A DNA stretch of 40,106 nt from Deltaproteobacteria bacterium (GTDB lineage: Bacteria; Desulfobacterota; Syntrophobacteria; BM002). The notes below the pieces were generated by a model, which saw only the letters and a program-made list of their open reading frames with translations, was not told the origin of the DNA and ran no database searches. Made by a program: the position numbers and the translations under genes. Below are positions 26,522 to 37,894 of this stretch, piece by piece. The stretch is from assembly GCA_019309045.1 (NCBI GenBank), contig JAFDGZ010000048.1, positions 1-40,106 of the forward strand, read 5' to 3'. The stretch's first letter is position 1. Every line of letters starts with the position of its first letter.

Positions 26522-26582
26522 AATGATTCCTCCCTCTATCTAGTTGTGGAGCGAAAGTAGTTTTTGTAAAGCTAAACAATGT

Positions 26583-26610
26583 AATATAAAGATGTCAAGT
26601 AAAATGTCAA
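26583..26610 (-). promoter_or_regulatory. Promoter of the MucR-like gene
   Basis: Minus-strand TTGACA (26605-26610), a 16-nt spacer and TATATT (26583-26588) predict a roughly 56-nt leader. A second TTGACA copy lies within the spacer (26593-26598). Such AT-rich DNA could also be an autoregulatory site. Confidence 0.6.
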
Positions 26611-27104
26611 ATGAGAATAAGAGAGGAGAACTGAATTCTAGTTAAACTAAAACAAATTTGTTCTTGCGAGACCGCTAGAAAAGCAATAACGCACATGAGA
26701 TATTGATGTTATCCAAAGGCACTAGTTCAATCTGGTATCAGAGATATTGCGCAATGTCTCAGGCATTTTTCATGAGGTCTTCAGTTGTTTTAATTTTGAC
26801 GACATGAAGGAAGGCTACTCACTGTCAGCCGACTTGCTCAGTATTGTATGTATCAGACCATGGCAGGCATTGCCTGCGTGTTGTGTCCTGAGTCAATCGT
26901 TTCTCAGAACTGAAGCTTGTATTTGCTTGCGATCTGCCATAGACTGGCGGCTCTCTTTTTGTTCAGCGGCATAAACAGACTGACGTTGTAGCACAGCTGC
27001 TCTGCACTGCCCGCTGGCAAACAGCAGGTGCAGCGACTCTGGTGGCTGAATACCTGGCAGTGGTTCTAAAAGGTTGTCGGCACCGGCAGGGTAACAGGGG
27101 AGAG
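26611..27104. other. Intergenic region before the broken gene
   Basis: About 490 bp with no gene I can support. The frame that holds the 5' part of the following pseudogene stays open upstream to a stop at 26940, so the ancestral gene may have started earlier. Beyond that I see only a short hairpin, GCAGGC/GCCTGC near 26864-26877. Confidence 0.35.
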
Positions 27105-27690
27105 ATGGATCAGAGCACCTGGGAACATTTGCTGACAAGATCGGTTGAATGCGCTGATGAGAGAATCTCCATTCAGGAAAAACTCTCTTACGCCAATCGC
27201 CTCAACTGCATGCTGGGCCGCCAGGTTGCGAGCAGATCGAGCCATTGCTCAGCTTGTCGAAACCTTTGAGAAACGGCTGCAAGGTAGTCGTATGCTCATG
27301 CAGCAGCTTGGCATTGTGCGTATTTGTACCCAGTGCGACGAAACCGAAGGTGGGAGCTGTTGAGGTGCTGGTCTCGAAAACAAATTCGACGCCATCATGT
27401 TACTGGTTAATCTTTTGCTGGGAGCAACATTGCCCGAGAGCCGTTTGCGGATGGGATCATGTTATTTCCTCAGTAAACGGGGCTGCATTCTGCAGTTTCG
27501 GTTGATACTGTACGTAGATTTTCTCTGTGAGAAGATATTAACCTGTCTAGATCATTCTGACCTGGTTAGACTGCAAACCATTTCTGGGGAGGAACTGATG
27601 GCTGGTTTTCTTCTCTACGACAGGGTCGAACGATTCTTGTCTGAAAAAGGCTTTCCCAGCTCTGCAATCGTCGCTGGCCTGCGTCAGTGA
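27105..27690 (+). pseudogene. Broken gene for a Cys-containing hypothetical protein (frameshift plus in-frame TGA)
   Basis: ATG 27105, with GGGGAGAG just upstream, opens a helical frame (WEHLLTRSVECADERISIQEKLSYANRLN) that ends after a few random residues at 27269. One frame over, coding-like sequence resumes near 27226 (RADRAIAQLVETFEKRLQ ... CTQCDETEGGSC) and stops at TGA 27361. It then continues in the same frame to 27690 (MLLVNLLLGATLPE, CYFLSKRGC, VDFLCEKI, GEELMAGFLLYDRVERFL). As I recall them, related Desulfobacterota proteins read GSCC at the TGA, so the TGA replaces a Cys codon. The likeliest reading is one ancestral protein of about 195 residues, a Cys-rich probable metal-binding protein, broken by one inserted base and one nonsense change. 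Confidence 0.6.
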
Positions 27691-27714
27691 TATCGGTGAG
27701 ACTCAAGAAGGCCA

Positions 27715-29892
27715 TCAGTTGTCTGCCAATTTATTCCTGCTGAACTCCAGGATTCGTGCAAAGACACGCTCACAATCTGCACCTCTAATAATGCTGTGGC
27801 GGGCGGCTGGAAAAATCGTCAATTCCTTGTCTTTTGAACCGAGTTTCTGGTAGAGCTCTTCTGTTCCTTCAGGATGCACCACCGGATCTTCTGAGGCCTG
27901 AATCAGTAAGGCTGGCAGAGTGATCTCCGGCGCTCTTTTGCCCACCTCGTCCATGAGGTCGAGAAGCTCTTTGATACCATGCACAGGATTGCGCAGATAA
28001 TTTATTTCAGGATTTTCAGGTTCGTTGGGTACGAAGTGCCAGCGGCTCTCCTCTCGGGAAAATCTATTTACCAGTTTGTTCCACACAACTACTGCAGGGG
28101 CCAGACGAGCCGACATTCTTCGCAATTTGAAAGGAGGGTTGATGGCAAAAACGGCTCGCAGCTTGTAGAGATTGTTTGCTGCGAGCATGAGGGCCAGGCC
28201 GGCTCCCATGCTGAAGCCACCAGCTATGATATTTTCGCAGCTGTTAGCCAGGATCAAATAACCATGCTCCGCTGATGTGAGCCAGTCCTGCCAGTTTCTG
28301 GCTGCGAGATCTTCTGGACTCGTACCATGCCCCCGCAAGCGGACGCCATAGACGGCATAGCCGTTCTGATGGAGGTAATTGGCCAAAGGCCTCATTTCTT
28401 CAGGAGCGGCCATGTAGCCGTGAGCCAGCAGTATGCCGTTTTTGGGCCGAAAACGCCTGAGAAAGAAAGGTGCGCCGATATGCCTTGGTTTCGACTCGCC
28501 GTCTATTTTGAACTCCTGATAGTCTCTGATGAACTGTGCTTTATCGCTCTTCAGCAGCGCCCGTCTCTGCTGCCAGCGAATGTACCAGGCCGGGCTCCAG
28601 GCGATGCGGCGAATTTCCCTGATGAGTGTCCGGAGGTATTCTACTTCGTTGAGGATCACCAGGTAGGTATTGTCGCGTCGGATGGTGTGGAAGTTAAAAA
28701 GAGAGGTCATCTTCAAGGGTTTCTTGGTGATGAGTTCCCCTGTGAGACTTATGACGCCACTTTTTTCGGCCACTGCCAGAAAGTCCGCAAGCTTGCGGGG
28801 ATAAAGTCGACAAAGTTGACTGCGCTGGTCCTCATGAAGGGCACGGTGAAAGTTGATGCCTTGCAAAGCGACCACTCTCTGGGAGGCCAGAAACAGACGC
28901 TGGGCCAATTCGAAGACCGTAAGGCGTCTGTTTGGCGAGTATTTGAGAAGATAGGCGGCCAGGTGATCATGGTTGACTGTTGTCATTCTGTATATGGAGT
29001 CCATGACCTTCATGGTAATTTTGCTGGCAGTTCTTCGCATGAGCGCTCGTGAGGGCAGAACCTCATCCGGTGATATGGCCTTGGGGCTGAGGATGTCCTG
29101 TTGGATTCGTTGTTGTCGCAGCCATGGCCGAATGGCAAATGGTTCACCAATGCTGATGTCGATGTCAACTCCAGCAAGGAGCATGGTGCCTTCGGTTAGC
29201 AGCTCTTCGCGAAACCTCTCAGGGAGGTCCTTGATCAAGAAAGAGGCCAGTCGCTCAATGGCGTTTTCACGGGAACGGATGGGATAGTAGCTGACGTTGA
29301 CTGGAACCAGGAAGGTTTCCTTACTGTTTACCTCTGCTGCCGTGTGGAGACCGAATACCCTGAGCTGCTCCTCCAGCAGAGGTGAGTGCCCTGAGCGAAG
29401 GTGTTCAATGCGCTGCCGGTAGAATTCAGTTCGCAAAGCAAGAACTGCAGCTCCTGTATGGGGAGGGCGCCGGCTGCCGGTGGCACTGTAAATAAGAAAT
29501 CTGCCGTGTTCGACAATCTTTTTGTCCTTGATCATCATGCCTTCAGGGAAAATTAACCATGAATGGTCGCCTTTCAGCAAGGAGCTGACAATAATTCGAT
29601 CGCGATTCGGATCCTTGGTAGAAACCGCGCCAATGTTCTCCAGGTAGCTTCGCAGGGTGCCCCTGAAGAAGCCATGATATGCCAGGGCCATAACTGGTTT
29701 GCCTGTAAGCTTGTAAAACTCATACGGCAGAATGAGTGTTTCGAGGCGAGTAAAGTGATTGACGACAAATATGAGAACACCGTCCTGGATGTTTTCTGCT
29801 CCATGGATGTGCACCGAGGCTCTGAACAGCTTTTCCAGAGCGCTCACCCCAAATTTGCTCAAAGAAAAGGTTAAGCGGTTGATTTCAACCAT
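27715..29892 (-). CDS. Fusion of PlsC-type acyltransferase and alpha/beta hydrolase
   Basis: A roughly 725-residue two-enzyme protein. Residues 1-300 are a glycerolipid acyltransferase: NHFTRLE supplies the HX4E motif (H46, E51), and IFPEGMM near 115-119 is the phosphate-binding FPEG block. About 300-420 is a helical linker similar to GPAT C-terminal regions. About 480-725 is a serine hydrolase of monoacylglycerol-lipase type: LLAHGYM (oxyanion), nucleophile S561 in GGFSMGAG, D669 in ASEDPVV, H699 in AARHSII. All catalytic residues of both halves are present, so it could remove and re-add acyl chains on lipids. Start ATG 29892; TTG 29925 would add 11 residues. No signal peptide; probably membrane-peripheral. 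It converges on the pseudogene and stands apart from efp. Confidence 0.88.
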   Translation of the reverse strand: MVEINRLTFSLSKFGVSALEKLFRASVHIHGAENIQDGVLIFVVNHFTRLETLILPYEFYKLTGKPVMALAYHGFFRGTLRSYLENIGAVSTKDPNRDRIIVSSLLKGDHSWLIFPEGMMIKDKKIVEHGRFLIYSATGSRRPPHTGAAVLALRTEFYRQRIEHLRSGHSPLLEEQLRVFGLHTAAEVNSKETFLVPVNVSYYPIRSRENAIERLASFLIKDLPERFREELLTEGTMLLAGVDIDISIGEPFAIRPWLRQQRIQQDILSPKAISPDEVLPSRALMRRTASKITMKVMDSIYRMTTVNHDHLAAYLLKYSPNRRLTVFELAQRLFLASQRVVALQGINFHRALHEDQRSQLCRLYPRKLADFLAVAEKSGVISLTGELITKKPLKMTSLFNFHTIRRDNTYLVILNEVEYLRTLIREIRRIAWSPAWYIRWQQRRALLKSDKAQFIRDYQEFKIDGESKPRHIGAPFFLRRFRPKNGILLAHGYMAAPEEMRPLANYLHQNGYAVYGVRLRGHGTSPEDLAARNWQDWLTSAEHGYLILANSCENIIAGGFSMGAGLALMLAANNLYKLRAVFAINPPFKLRRMSARLAPAVVVWNKLVNRFSREESRWHFVPNEPENPEINYLRNPVHGIKELLDLMDEVGKRAPEITLPALLIQASEDPVVHPEGTEELYQKLGSKDKELTIFPAARHSIIRGADCERVFARILEFSRNKLADN

Positions 29893-32529: not shown

Positions 32530-34083
32530 ATGGGCATTGTTGCAGATAAGATCAGAGAATTGCGAGACAAAGAAGCCAAAATCAAGGAAATGGGTGGTGC
32601 GGAGGCGGTAAAGAAACAGCACCAGAGAGGAAAGCTTACCGCCAGGGAGCGCATCGATCTCCTTTTCGACCAGGGCACCTTTCGGGAAACTGACATTTTC
32701 ATGAAGCACCGCGGCACGCTCTTTGGCCTGGATAAAATGGAAATCCCGGCTGATGGAGTGGTAACGGGCTTTGGCAAGGTGAACGGCAGGCCGGTGTGCG
32801 CCTTTTCGCAAGATTTTACTGCCCGGGCTGGCACCCTTGGAGAGATGCATGCCAAGAAGATTTGCAAAGTTCTGGACATGGCTATGAAGGCCGGCATTCC
32901 CGTGGTGGGATTCAACGACTCGGGCGGAGCAAGGATTCAGGAGGGGGTGGATTCACTTTCCGGCTATGGCCAGATATTCTACCGCAACGCCATTGCCTCC
33001 GGGGTTATCCCCCAAATTTCTGCAATCATGGGGCCCTGCGCTGGAGGGGCTGTGTATTCTCCTGCAATGACTGATTTTGTCTTCATGGTGAAGAAAACCA
33101 GCTACATGTTTATTACCGGACCTGACGTGATCAAGGCAGTGCTGGGTGAAGAGATTACTTTCGAAGACCTGGGCGGCGCCATGGCCCACAATAGCAAGAG
33201 CGGCGTAGCCCATTTTGCCTGCGAAGACGATGCCAATGCCATAGAACAAATCAAACTCCTGTTGAGCTACCTGCCGAGTAACAACATGGAGGAGCCGCCG
33301 CGGGTGGATACAGGCGACAGCATTACCCGAACCGATCCTGCCCTCGACAGCATCATTCCGGACAACCCCATGGGCTCGTATGACATGAAGGATGTCATCC
33401 GATCCATCGTAGACAATGGAGATTTCCTCGAAGTACACCAGTTTTATGCCCAGAATATGGTTGTTGGATTTGGCCGCCTGGCCGGACGCACCATAGGAAT
33501 CATTGCCAACCAGCCCAAAGTGCTTGCTGGCTGCCTGGATGTGGATTCCTCCGACAAGGCCACCAGATTCATCCGCTTTTGTGATTGTTTCAATATTCCC
33601 CTGCTCACCATTGCCGATGTGCCAGGTTACTTACCGGGCAGCCAGCAGGAATGGAGCGGTATTATCAGACATGGGGCCAAGCTGCTGTGGTGTTATTCCG
33701 AGGCAACGGTGCCAAAGATTACCCTGATTACCCGCAAGGATTATGGGGGCTCTTATTTGGCCATGTGTTCCAGGGATCTTGGTGCTGATCTGGCCTTGGC
33801 CTGGCCCACGGCAGAGATTGCCGTTATGGGGGCTGAAGGGGCTGCCAATATAATCTTTCGCCGCGAGATAATGGCAGCCGAGGATCCTGAAGCAAAGCGG
33901 CAGGAAAAAATCGAAGAGTATCGCAACCTGCTCTATAATCCGTATATCGCCCAGTCACGGGGATACATCGACGGAATCATCGTGCCGAGTGAGACGCGGC
34001 CTCGCCTAATAGAGGCTCTAGAAGTTCTCTCCACCAAGAGGGAGCAGCTGCCGCCAAAGAAGCACGGCAATATCCCACAGTAA
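32530..34083 (+). CDS. mmdA: Acyl-CoA carboxylase/decarboxylase carboxyltransferase subunit (propionyl-/methylmalonyl-CoA)
   Basis: The 517-residue biotin-dependent carboxyltransferase interconverts propionyl-CoA and (S)-methylmalonyl-CoA with carboxybiotin. Two crotonase-fold halves are visible: N-half with KLTARERIDLLFD (35-47), FNDSGGARIQEGVDSLSGYGQIFYRN (oxyanion hole) and MGPCAGGAVYSPAMTDF; C-half with IADVPGYLPGSQQEWSGIIRHGAK and the RKDYGGSYLAMCSRDLGAD oxyanion segment. The family covers PccB, MmdA and the 12S transcarboxylase. Context with the mutase and epimerase supports a propionyl/methylmalonyl substrate. Biotin carrier and membrane partners are not in the window, so carboxylase versus decarboxylase is open. 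AGGAGAGG precedes ATG 32530. Confidence 0.92.
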   Translation: MGIVADKIRELRDKEAKIKEMGGAEAVKKQHQRGKLTARERIDLLFDQGTFRETDIFMKHRGTLFGLDKMEIPADGVVTGFGKVNGRPVCAFSQDFTARAGTLGEMHAKKICKVLDMAMKAGIPVVGFNDSGGARIQEGVDSLSGYGQIFYRNAIASGVIPQISAIMGPCAGGAVYSPAMTDFVFMVKKTSYMFITGPDVIKAVLGEEITFEDLGGAMAHNSKSGVAHFACEDDANAIEQIKLLLSYLPSNNMEEPPRVDTGDSITRTDPALDSIIPDNPMGSYDMKDVIRSIVDNGDFLEVHQFYAQNMVVGFGRLAGRTIGIIANQPKVLAGCLDVDSSDKATRFIRFCDCFNIPLLTIADVPGYLPGSQQEWSGIIRHGAKLLWCYSEATVPKITLITRKDYGGSYLAMCSRDLGADLALAWPTAEIAVMGAEGAANIIFRREIMAAEDPEAKRQEKIEEYRNLLYNPYIAQSRGYIDGIIVPSETRPRLIEALEVLSTKREQLPPKKHGNIPQ

Positions 34084-34173
34084 TACACTTTGCCGGAGAA
34101 GTTGGCCCTCCAGGGCAAGTGTCCAGGTTATAAAAAATCGGCGGCGATCCGCTGAGGGCTGGCCGCCCTTAAC

Positions 34174-34581
34174 TCAATCTTGCCGTTCACACAATTCTAT
34201 GAGCACTCCGTGGGTTGACTTGGGGTGGAGGAAGGCTATCTTGGCACCGCCGGCGCCCACTCTCGGTTTCTCGTCGATGAGCCGTATTCCTTGCTTTTTC
34301 AATTCAGCCAGCGCTTCTTCCAAGTTTTCGACTCTGAAGGCAATGTGTTGAATGCCCTCTCCCCGTTTTTCCAGATATTTGGCAATGGGGCCGTCAGCAG
34401 CAGTGGATTCCAGCAACTCGACTTCGCTGTCACCCACGGGGAAAAAAGCGGTAGTCACTTTCTGTTCAACCACTGTCTCTGTGCCGGCAAAATTCAGTCC
34501 CAGAATGTCGTGAAAGAGTCTCTTGGCCTCGTCTATCTTGTTGACTGCGATTCCCAGGTGGTCGATTTTGACAATTTTCAT
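34174..34581 (-). CDS. mce: Methylmalonyl-CoA epimerase
   Basis: Interconverts (S)- and (R)-methylmalonyl-CoA, linking the carboxyltransferase with the mutase. The 135-residue vicinal-oxygen-chelate protein has KIDHLGIAV (metal His 8), VELLEST, GEGIQHIAFRV and GVLIELCE (metal Glu), all standard for the family. I chose ATG 34581 because GGAGG lies 9 nt upstream; the frame is open to 34674 but the extra part is not conserved-looking. Last gene of the leftward mutase operon, 160 bp after meaB. Confidence 0.95.
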   Translation of the reverse strand: MKIVKIDHLGIAVNKIDEAKRLFHDILGLNFAGTETVVEQKVTTAFFPVGDSEVELLESTAADGPIAKYLEKRGEGIQHIAFRVENLEEALAELKKQGIRLIDEKPRVGAGGAKIAFLHPKSTHGVLIELCERQD

Positions 34582-34740
34582 GTAAGGTTCCTCCATAGGC
34601 TTCTTCGAGATCAACGGTTTTTCTACCTGAGTACTTCGAGCCAGCTGGCGCCTGGCGCCAACCAGCAGGTGCACAGCTGGCTGCTGTGGCTGGAGGGAGC
34701 TACCTGGCCGCCATGGTTGCCGAAAATCTCAACCCATTGG

Positions 34741-35730
34741 TCAATGCTCTCCTGACGGGGGAAACAGGCTGTCCACTATTTCCTGGATGCTGCTGTACGG
34801 GTCCTTCTTGCGATTGACGATGTCGTCTACAAGAGTGTCAAAGCGACCATTGCCGAGCACTTTTTCTACCACGGCCCGCCCGAGCTCTTTCTGCAACAGA
34901 GCCAGGGTTTCCTGTCTGGTCCGCTCGCGCCGGGCTTTGCGCAACACGCCAGTCTTTTCTGCAAAGGCGCGATGTTCATCGATTGCTTCCACCAACTCGG
35001 CCACGCCTTCTGCTTCAACAGCAACCGTTTGCAAAACGGGCGGCTGCCAGGCCATGTTCTTGATGTGGCAGTCCTGCTCCACCCGGAGCTGCACCTCTGT
35101 CACCAGCTGCTCGGCCCCAGGGCGATCCGCTTTGTTCACCACGTAGAGGTCGGCAATTTCCATCACGCCAGCCTTCATACTCTGAATCACATCGCCAAGA
35201 CCCGGCGCCAGAACCACAAGGGTGGTGTCTGCTGTTTTGGCAATATCCACTTCATCCTGGCCAACGCCCACTGTCTCCACTATGATCCATTCCTTGCCAA
35301 AGGCATCCATGATCTTGACTGCATCGGCGGTAGTTCTGGCCAGCCCGCCAAGATGCCCTCGGGTGGCCATGGAGCGAATGAACACCCCTGGATCAGTGGC
35401 AGCTCGGTGCATGCGGAGGCGATCTCCCAGGAGAGCCCCTCCAGTAAAGGGACTGGAGGGATCTACCGCAATGATGCCCACAGTGTGCTGCCGCCGCCGC
35501 AGTTCCATAGCGATCTTGTCGCTCAGAGTGCTTTTGCCGGTTCCAGGGGAGCCGGTTATGCCAAGCACATAAGCCCTGCCCGTGTAGGGATAAATGGCGG
35601 CCAACAGTTCGAAGGCTTGCTGGTCTTCATTTTCAACCAGGGTTATCAGCCGGGACATTGCCCTTACCGACCCGGACAGCATTTCTCTTACCAGGTTCTG
35701 CTCAATCACCGTACAGCCCGCCAGACCCAA
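34741..35730 (-). CDS. meaB: Methylmalonyl-CoA mutase-associated GTPase MeaB
   Basis: G3E GTPase chaperone (329 residues) that gates adenosylcobalamin delivery to, and protects, methylmalonyl-CoA mutase. Walker A GSPGTGKST is at 60-68; switch region VDPSSPFTGGALLGDR (92-107), the D-rich IIVETVGVGQDE segment and base-specificity NKAD follow. The start is TTG 35730, 8 bp after the cobalamin subunit stop; GTG 35709 (VIEQNLVREML) is an alternative nearer to typical MeaB beginnings. Its place in the mutase operon confirms the partner. Confidence 0.95.
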   Translation of the reverse strand: MGLAGCTVIEQNLVREMLSGSVRAMSRLITLVENEDQQAFELLAAIYPYTGRAYVLGITGSPGTGKSTLSDKIAMELRRRQHTVGIIAVDPSSPFTGGALLGDRLRMHRAATDPGVFIRSMATRGHLGGLARTTADAVKIMDAFGKEWIIVETVGVGQDEVDIAKTADTTLVVLAPGLGDVIQSMKAGVMEIADLYVVNKADRPGAEQLVTEVQLRVEQDCHIKNMAWQPPVLQTVAVEAEGVAELVEAIDEHRAFAEKTGVLRKARRERTRQETLALLQKELGRAVVEKVLGNGRFDTLVDDIVNRKKDPYSSIQEIVDSLFPPSGEH

Positions 35731-35738
35731 GAAAAGGT

Positions 35739-36140
35739 TCAGTTTTCTTTGACATGATCCCGAATAAACTTAACAATCTCTTCGGTTCTCGTTCCCGGAC
35801 CAAAAATGGCGGCCACGCCTGCCTCTTTGAGCCCAGGAAGATCTTCTTCAGGAATAATGCCTCCGCCAATAACCAGGACGTCGTCCATGCCCTTTTGGCG
35901 GAGAAGCTGCACCACTTTCGGGAAAAAGTAATTGTGCACCCCACTGAGACTGCTGAGCCCCACAACATCTGCATCTTCCTGAAGTGCGGTCTCCACAATC
36001 ATTTCCGGCGTTTGCCGCAAGCCGGTGTAGACGACCTCCATGCCGGCTTCAGCAAGCACGCGCGCCAGAAGTTTAGCGCCCCTGTCATGGCCGTCTAGGC
36101 CCGGCTTGGCCATAATTACCTTTATCCTTTTTTCGGCCAT
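35739..36140 (-). CDS. Methylmalonyl-CoA mutase cobalamin-binding subunit
   Basis: A stand-alone 133-residue B12 domain corresponding to the C-terminal part of one-chain mutases. The base-off/His-on motif is [12 protein letters not shown] (D16, H18, G21), followed by [13 protein letters not shown] and [28 protein letters not shown]. It pairs with the 559-residue catalytic subunit encoded 74 bp upstream. I chose ATG 36140 with GGGAGGAGG upstream; the earlier in-frame ATG at 36167 lies before that site. Confidence 0.96.
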
Positions 36141-36214
36141 AACCAGCCTCCTCCCTTGGCATTCCATCAGTAGTTTGCCACAAAAACCAGCAACAACTCT
36201 CGTGTTGTGCTTGC

Positions 36215-37894
36215 TCAGATATATTCTTTGGGGCGATATTCACCCCAGATACTTCTCCAAACGTCGCAGATTTCACCGATTGTTGCTCTGCTCTTCACCG
36301 CCTCGATTACGGCAGGCATGACATTCTCTTCAGTACGAGATACCTCTGCCAGATTGTCGAGGGCCCTGTTCACCGCAGACTGATCTCTTTCTGCCCTGAG
36401 TCTGGCAAGTTTTTCGCTCTCGATTTCACCCTGTCTGGGATCGACCTTCAACAGATTGGTCAGGGGCGGCTCTTCCATGGTGTACTTGTTGATTCCCACA
36501 TAGACGCGCTCACCGGATTCTATCTCTTTTTGAAAGCGGTAAGCACTGTCCTGAATTTCTCGTTGAATGTATCCTTCCTCAATGGCCTTGAGAGTTCCTC
36601 CCATGGCACCGATCTTGCCGATATAGTCATCGATTTCAGCCTCTATCCTGTCGGTGATTTTTTCCAGGTAATAACCGCCGGCCAGTGGGTCGATGGTGTC
36701 GGCTGCACCGCTCTCTTCCGCCACTATCTGCTGGGTTCTGAGCGCCACAGTCACTGCCTCTTCAGTGGGCAGGCAGAGAGCCTCGTCATAGGAATTGGTA
36801 TGCAGCGACTGGGCCCCGCCGTAGGCAGCAGCCAGGGTCTGCAAGGCGACGCGCACTATATTGTTGAGTGGTTGCTGCGCTGTGAGGGTTACCCCACCGG
36901 TCTGCACATGGTAGCGCATCATCATGGAGCGAGGATTACTGGCGCCAAATCGATCCCGCATCACCCTGGCCCAGTAGCGCCGCCCAGCCCGGAACTTGGC
37001 TACTTCTTCCAGCACATTGGTAAAGGCATTATAAAAGAAGGAGAGACGAGGCGCGAAGCTGTCTACTGCCAGACCCCGGTCTATGCAAGACTGCACATAG
37101 GTAATGCCATTGGCAATGGTAAAGGCCATTTCTTGCGCAGCGGTGGCGCCGGCTTCCCTGATATGGTAGCCGCTAATGCTTATGGTGTTCCACTTGGGCA
37201 CGTGCTTGAAGCAATACTTTATGAGGTCGACAGTCAAACGCATGGATGGCCCTGGTGGATAGATGTACTGGCCTCGACAGATGATTTCTTTGAGAATATC
37301 GTTCTGCACCGTGCCCCCTACCTTGTCGTAGGCGACTCCCTGTTCGTCGGCGAGTGCAAGATACATGGCAAGCAGAATTGTGGCAGGCGCATTGATGGTC
37401 ATGGAGGTGGTAACCTTCTCCAAGGGGATTTGGTCGAAGAGCACTCTCATGTCATCAAGGGAATCTATGGCCACGCCTACCTTGCCTACCTCTCCCATGG
37501 AGAGAGGGTGATCAGAGTCGTAGCCAGACTGGGTAGGCAGGTCGAAGGCCACACTCAAACCTGTTTGTCCCTGCTCCAGAAGATAGCGGTATCGAGCGTT
37601 AGTTTCCCTGGCAGTTCCGAAGCCAGCGTACTGCCGCATGGTCCAGAGACGACCGCGGTACATGGTGGGCTGTACGCCGCGTGTAAAAGGATATTCCCCG
37701 GGGAAACCCAGTTTGGCCTGGTAGTCCAAGTCAGCGATGTCAACCGGTGTATAGAGCCGGTCCACTTCCATACCTGAAATGGTGGTAAAAACGGCTTTCC
37801 GTTCGGGAAACTTGCTGCACACCTTTTGTACGGGACCACAATCCCACTTCTCCTTGGCCGCTTTGATGGCATTAATCTTTGCCTTGTCGAACAT
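36215..37894 (-). CDS. Methylmalonyl-CoA mutase large (catalytic) subunit
   Basis: Adenosylcobalamin-dependent mutase converting (R)-methylmalonyl-CoA to succinyl-CoA. The 559-residue protein holds only the TIM-barrel catalytic part. Y89 (TMRQYAGF), R207 ([10 protein letters not shown]) and H244 (SGYHIREAG) are present and, as I recall the Propionibacterium enzyme, correspond to its Y89, R207 and H244. Isobutyryl-CoA and hydroxyisobutyryl-CoA mutases replace the first two, so the methylmalonyl assignment is firm. R82 (CoA carboxylate contact) is also kept, while position 75 is Gln instead of Tyr. ATG 37894 follows GGAGG. First gene of a leftward operon with its B12 subunit, meaB and mce. No clear promoter in the 139-bp gap upstream. 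Confidence 0.96.

Follow-up and report, generated by a model that had tools for sequence, protein, structure and literature searches.

A conserved acyltransferase-hydrolase fusion protein of Desulfobacterota and Spirochaetota with a possible role in glycerolipid salvage

The fusion gene and its two halves

The window, by which we mean the whole 40,106-nucleotide stretch of DNA that was analysed, contains at positions 27715-29892 of the reverse strand a single unbroken open reading frame (ATG at 29892, stop codon at 27715-27717) which encodes a protein of 725 amino acids and is present in one copy in the genome. Residues 1-192 (29317-29892) form an LPLAT/acyltransferase core in which the Pfam Acyltransferase domain PF01553 was matched at residues 27-155 (7.5e-7, 29.5 bits against a cut-off of 23), and residues 471-725 (27718-28482) form a monoacylglycerol-lipase-like alpha/beta hydrolase with Hydrolase_4 (PF12146) matched above its cut-off at residues 483-702 (7.7e-32). 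The catalytic His and Glu of motif I (H46-x4-E51) lie within NHFTRLET (29740-29757) and the FPEG of motif III occupies residues 115-118 (29539-29550), followed by K122, K124 and K125. In the hydrolase, Ser561 is the nucleophile within GFSMG (28210-28212), Asp669 the triad acid (27886-27888) and His699 the triad base (27796-27798); all of these features are on the reverse strand. The catalytic residues of dyad and triad are invariant in 43 of 43 full-length homologues, with F115 present as Phe in 41 and Tyr in two. GFSMG is the variant of the window protein, the other 42 of the 43 having GFSTG. A preliminary description of this DNA had proposed an acyltransferase and a serine hydrolase in one protein, with complete catalytic sets in both halves, and the unbroken frame, the two domain matches and the invariant residues bear this out.

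AlphaFold2 models had a pLDDT of 81 for the full protein and 79 for the N-terminal half. Foldseek identified human GPAT1 (8e4y) as the best solved structure for the N-half model (E 2.7e-9, 458 columns, TMq 0.50), the match spanning residues 1-462 of the fusion protein, and PlsC as the next solved match. Because the model matches GPAT1 along its whole length, residues 193-470 (28483-29316, reverse strand), which include VPVNVSYYP as motif IV, were assigned to the GPAT1-like unit, and they form a GPAT_C-like continuation of the acyltransferase half rather than an empty linker. GPAT_C (PF19277) was matched at residues 244-342 below its curated cut-off (1e-4, 22.0 against 25 bits); it was matched by 3 of the 16 A2 members, and PF01553 by all 16. 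The N-half profile gave no meaningful match to the sequences of solved structures and profile-profile comparison with PlsB was weak (P = 0.04), so that the relation to GPAT rests on fold.

GPAT1-type enzymes have HX4D as motif I, IRR as motif II and EG[GT]R[ST]R as motif III (PMC4207751), whereas the corresponding motifs of the fusion protein read HX4E, GAVSTKDPxRD and FPEGxMxKxKK. Conserved HX4[D/E] and [FV]xEG motifs, together with the above cut-off match, place the protein in the PF01553 superfamily. With GPAT1/PlsB (PF01553 plus PF19277) it shares the fold across the LPLAT and C-terminal regions, the order of motifs I-IV and the weak GPAT_C similarity, but it differs in motif I, in the lack of IRR, in the lysines which replace R[ST]R, and in having a much shorter acyltransferase joined to a hydrolase. 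The window genome also encodes a canonical PlsB, in which all three of motifs I-III are present, and a canonical PlsY, so the fusion would be dispensable for ordinary glycerol-3-phosphate (G3P) acylation. The sequences of motifs I-III, the sub-threshold GPAT_C match and the coexisting PlsB and PlsY rule out a plain PlsB copy.

Mutation of either H132 or E137 in LpxL reduced activity approximately 1000- to 3000-fold, indicating that HX4E is a working dyad (PMC6286764), and by analogy acyltransferase activity of the fusion protein is likely. The likeness to the LpxL/LpxM late acyltransferases is one of motif description and not of sequence comparison, and these enzymes differ in that their acceptor is lipid A and they have no hydrolase. 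The motif III arginines contact G3P in GPAT1-type enzymes (PMC11011501). The fusion protein has neither these nor the motif II arginines, so its acceptor may be something other than G3P; GPAT4, however, recognises and uses G3P although it has no arginines in motif III (PMC11011501).

The nearest matches to residues 471-725, both by sequence and by fold, were bacterial monoacylglycerol lipases (bMGL; Bacillus H257, Est30 group), with which this half shares the alpha/beta hydrolase fold, the Ser-Asp-His triad and a cap. Glu156 of bMGL, which binds glycerol (PMC3829422), aligns with E629, but this glycerol-binding Glu is absent in most homologues, the position being His in 59 of 100. The fusion also differs from bMGL in that the hydrolase is the C-terminal domain of a larger protein and has a family-specific cap motif, NPENPxINYxRNP.

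Distribution, linkage and variation

A scan of representative genomes yielded 44 relatives, nearly all full length, from Desulfobacula, Desulfotignum, Desulfospira, other Desulfobacterales and Spirochaetota. The gene is carried, for example, by Desulfospira joergensenii DSM 10085 (locus L044), a named strain. The N-half profile matched in 46 of 395 genomes of the window's phylum and in 34 of 198 sampled from Spirochaetota; within the window's family the figure was 11 of 13. The window's phylum was taken to be Desulfobacterota on the ground that the MnmA/ferredoxin neighbourhood of the named Desulfobacula loci recurs in its genomes. No match came from the genomes sampled in other families of the class, so the distribution is patchy. 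Nearly all matches sit in reading frames of about 700-800 aa, and in approximately 65 dissected loci a hydrolase followed every N-half with one exception; neither a stand-alone N-half (about 470 aa) nor split neighbours were seen among these loci. A search for conservation of the fusion and for adjacent split homologues had been suggested with the preliminary description, and its outcome is thus a fusion that recurs in two phyla. The pairwise distances of the two halves were correlated across 100 proteins (r = 0.91); the halves evolve together, as expected if they were joined once, long ago. The fusion is an old family, conserved in two phyla, rather than a one-off.

A chimera or annotation artefact was ruled out, as about 100 loci share the architecture. 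A plasmid-borne module and an anti-phage system were rejected as well: no plasmid match spanned 80% of the query, the hydrolase alone being covered in the ten matches listed, and PADLOC gave no match.

Across 100 fusions, all 98 rows that cover H46 and E51 have both residues (the remaining two start downstream of them in the ORF calls, ORF starts having been assigned mechanically) and the Glu-Gly of FPEG was kept in 100 of 100. The S/D/H triad was intact in 91, S/E/H in two (f44; family labels are those of the search tool) and lost in seven, namely all six f45 members and one of an f17 tandem pair. The f45 loci (L105-L108, L110, L111) retain the hydrolase domain and intact acyltransferase motifs with S, D and H lost in 6 of 6, and f45 can be read as a pseudo-hydrolase lineage. 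At L076:5600-10010 (reverse strand) two fusion genes lie in tandem, with Gly replacing the nucleophile Ser in one.

The single-contig genome G002, from the window's own family, has a second copy (L163:8545-10923, forward strand) in which a matching N-half is followed by a calcineurin-like metallophosphoesterase (PF00149, 2e-17) in place of the hydrolase. Most genomes of the window's family, that of the window included, have non-fused relatives of this phosphoesterase with 54-65% identity. In the window's genome (L171, G000:C9:6000-18000) the relative lies near ORFs which inspection of their sequences alone would name acyl-CoA-ligase-like, ketoacyl-synthase-like and nucleotidyltransferase-like, a neighbourhood that looks lipid-related; the G002 equivalent (L172) has an additional ORF, named diacylglycerol-kinase-like on the same basis. 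Because the dyad is invariant while triad losses and a phosphoesterase swap occur, the acyltransferase is the part that does not change, and the C-terminal head is in most cases, though not in all, a hydrolase that looks active. The possibility that homologues lack a conserved triad, which would have told against the original reading, was thus realised in f45 and one tandem paralogue and not in the great majority.

Genomic neighbourhood

In the window the gene is flanked by EF-P upstream and, past a 1.2-kb gap, by a Ros/MucR-type regulator downstream, with no lipid-synthesis neighbour, in agreement with the earlier statement that it stands alone. The gap (26522-27714) contained no convincing coding gene and no Rfam match. 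Nearby in the window, carboxyltransferase and methylmalonyl-CoA mutase genes (32530-37894) point to a propionyl-CoA/methylmalonyl-CoA pathway.

A glycerophosphodiester phosphodiesterase (GDPD) gene was found immediately upstream of the fusion gene, in the same orientation and separated by -4 to +138 nt, in five f34 genomes and one f29 genome, and in G296 (f89) on the downstream side, where the GDPD start overlaps the stop codon of the fusion (ATGA). The GDPD-coupled genomes had one full GDPD match each, with two in G261. Coupling was thus observed in 3 of approximately 17 families; the window gene has no GDPD neighbour, and the GDPD genes of its genome sit on other contigs. That such coupling has arisen independently in three families, and not always on one side of the gene, is difficult to explain as coincidence, a judgement to which no formal probability is attached. 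For the lineages concerned it supports a role in phospholipid salvage or remodelling.

The other recurring neighbours, mostly named by inspecting their sequences, showed no common lipid function: NUDIX in Spirochaetota, ferredoxin/MnmA in the Desulfobacula group, EF-P in the window's family, CvpA in f42 and NADH-binding-type subunits in f45. In several Spirochaetota loci examined (e.g. L003:5566-5988) the NUDIX hydrolase gene was the immediate upstream neighbour, in the same orientation, and most other Spirochaetota loci had ORFs of NUDIX-like size in this position. A 4HBT thioesterase gene was present upstream in one f89 member.

Possible functions of the fusion

The best explanation, which we put forward tentatively, is a two-headed enzyme of glycerolipid salvage or remodelling. 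The C-terminal MGL/lysophospholipase-like hydrolase would deacylate a glycerolipid with one chain, either a lysophospholipid or a monoacylglycerol, and the N-terminal GPAT1-fold acyltransferase would use HX4E to transfer a chain from an activated donor to a small acceptor of the glycerol-phosphate type. In the families with a coupled GDPD, the deacylated glycerophosphodiester would be converted to G3P and returned to the acyltransferase. The anatomy of the domains, the conserved catalytic residues, the obligate linkage of the halves and the GDPD coupling in three families are observed; what we infer are the substrates, the way in which the flux runs, any channelling from one head to the other and the same role for the window protein, away from any GDPD gene. 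The salvage reading is favoured because GDPD genes are coupled in three families, and it agrees with the presence of both domains, the conserved dyad and triad, the correlated distances of the halves, the GPAT1-nearest and MGL-nearest halves fused in every lineage sampled, the alignment of E629 with Glu156, the metallophosphoesterase as the single C-terminal swap, and the PlsB and PlsY that cover de novo G3P acylation. Against it stand the absent GPAT arginines, the restriction of the GDPD link to a minority of families and its absence from the window, the loss of the triad in f45 and the His at the E629 position in most homologues.

The preliminary description had suggested a Lands-type deacylation-reacylation cycle. 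Deacylation and reacylation on one chain retain support from two active sites conserved over two phyla and from the GDPD genes, whereas the f45 proteins, with their intact acyltransferase, and the copy with a phosphoesterase do not conform. The Lands-type label itself fits less well, the fold being GPAT1-like rather than that of a typical Lands-cycle LPLAT, with motifs I-III that differ from GPAT.

No characterised family with the architecture of the fusion, which would have counted against the original reading, was found in the open-access literature, to which the search was confined, and the family is apparently unstudied. The nearest architecture, in reversed order, is that of the plant and algal phytyl ester synthases (PES; ELT family), in which a single chain likewise holds an alpha/beta hydrolase region together with an acyltransferase bearing an H...D/E motif, and for which a membrane-lipid recycling role is given (PMC12526585) that is shared with the fusion as a proposal only. 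PES make phytyl esters and triacylglycerol, with a lipase activity postulated (PMC12526585), and by analogy the fusion could be a transacylase-type synthase. An acyl chain released from a membrane lipid by the hydrolase would then be loaded by the acyltransferase onto an acceptor that is hydrophobic or unusual (a neutral, ether or storage lipid), for synthesis and not salvage. The missing G3P-binding arginines and the canonical PlsB and PlsY beside the fusion are consistent with this. However, PES have the hydrolase first and a DGAT2/MFAT-type acyltransferase second (PMC12048435, PMC12526585), and the fusion has neither an N-terminal hydrolase nor a C-terminal DGAT2-type domain, with no PF03982 match up to E = 1; the GDPD coupling indicates glycerophosphodiester handling, and we consider such a synthase rather unlikely. 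The PES clade is confined to chlorophyll-containing organisms (PMC12526585).

Slightly less probable again is a protein whose important activity is acyl transfer, the hydrolase serving as a sensor, membrane-docking or regulatory module for which catalysis is secondary. An invariant acyltransferase beside the seven triad losses and the phosphoesterase swap in one genome would fit a module of this kind, but retention of S/D/H in 91 of 100 fusions from two phyla argues for selection for catalysis in most lineages. A quality-control or editing role, in which the hydrolase would clear incorrect or damaged acyl chains that the acyltransferase produces or encounters (as a thioesterase or proof-reader, with no salvage pathway), has in its favour two active sites on one chain and the 4HBT gene of one f89 member, but it is improbable given that there are no conserved fatty-acid-synthesis neighbours and that it leaves the GDPD genes unexplained.

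Returning to salvage, it is possible, and we suggest it with more reserve than the salvage role itself, that the fusion represents an undescribed family in which one polypeptide carries out the deacylation as well as the reacylation step of a glycerolipid cycle and a separate glycerophosphodiesterase closes the loop. Desulfobacterota and Spirochaetota would then have a compact module for phospholipid salvage with an exchangeable C-terminal head. Intracellular phospholipid degradation and Lands-type remodelling in bacteria are little understood, a point made for P. aeruginosa (PMC9132575). If the proposal is true, a single conserved gene with both activities would make bacterial remodelling directly testable, for example in Desulfospira joergensenii DSM 10085.
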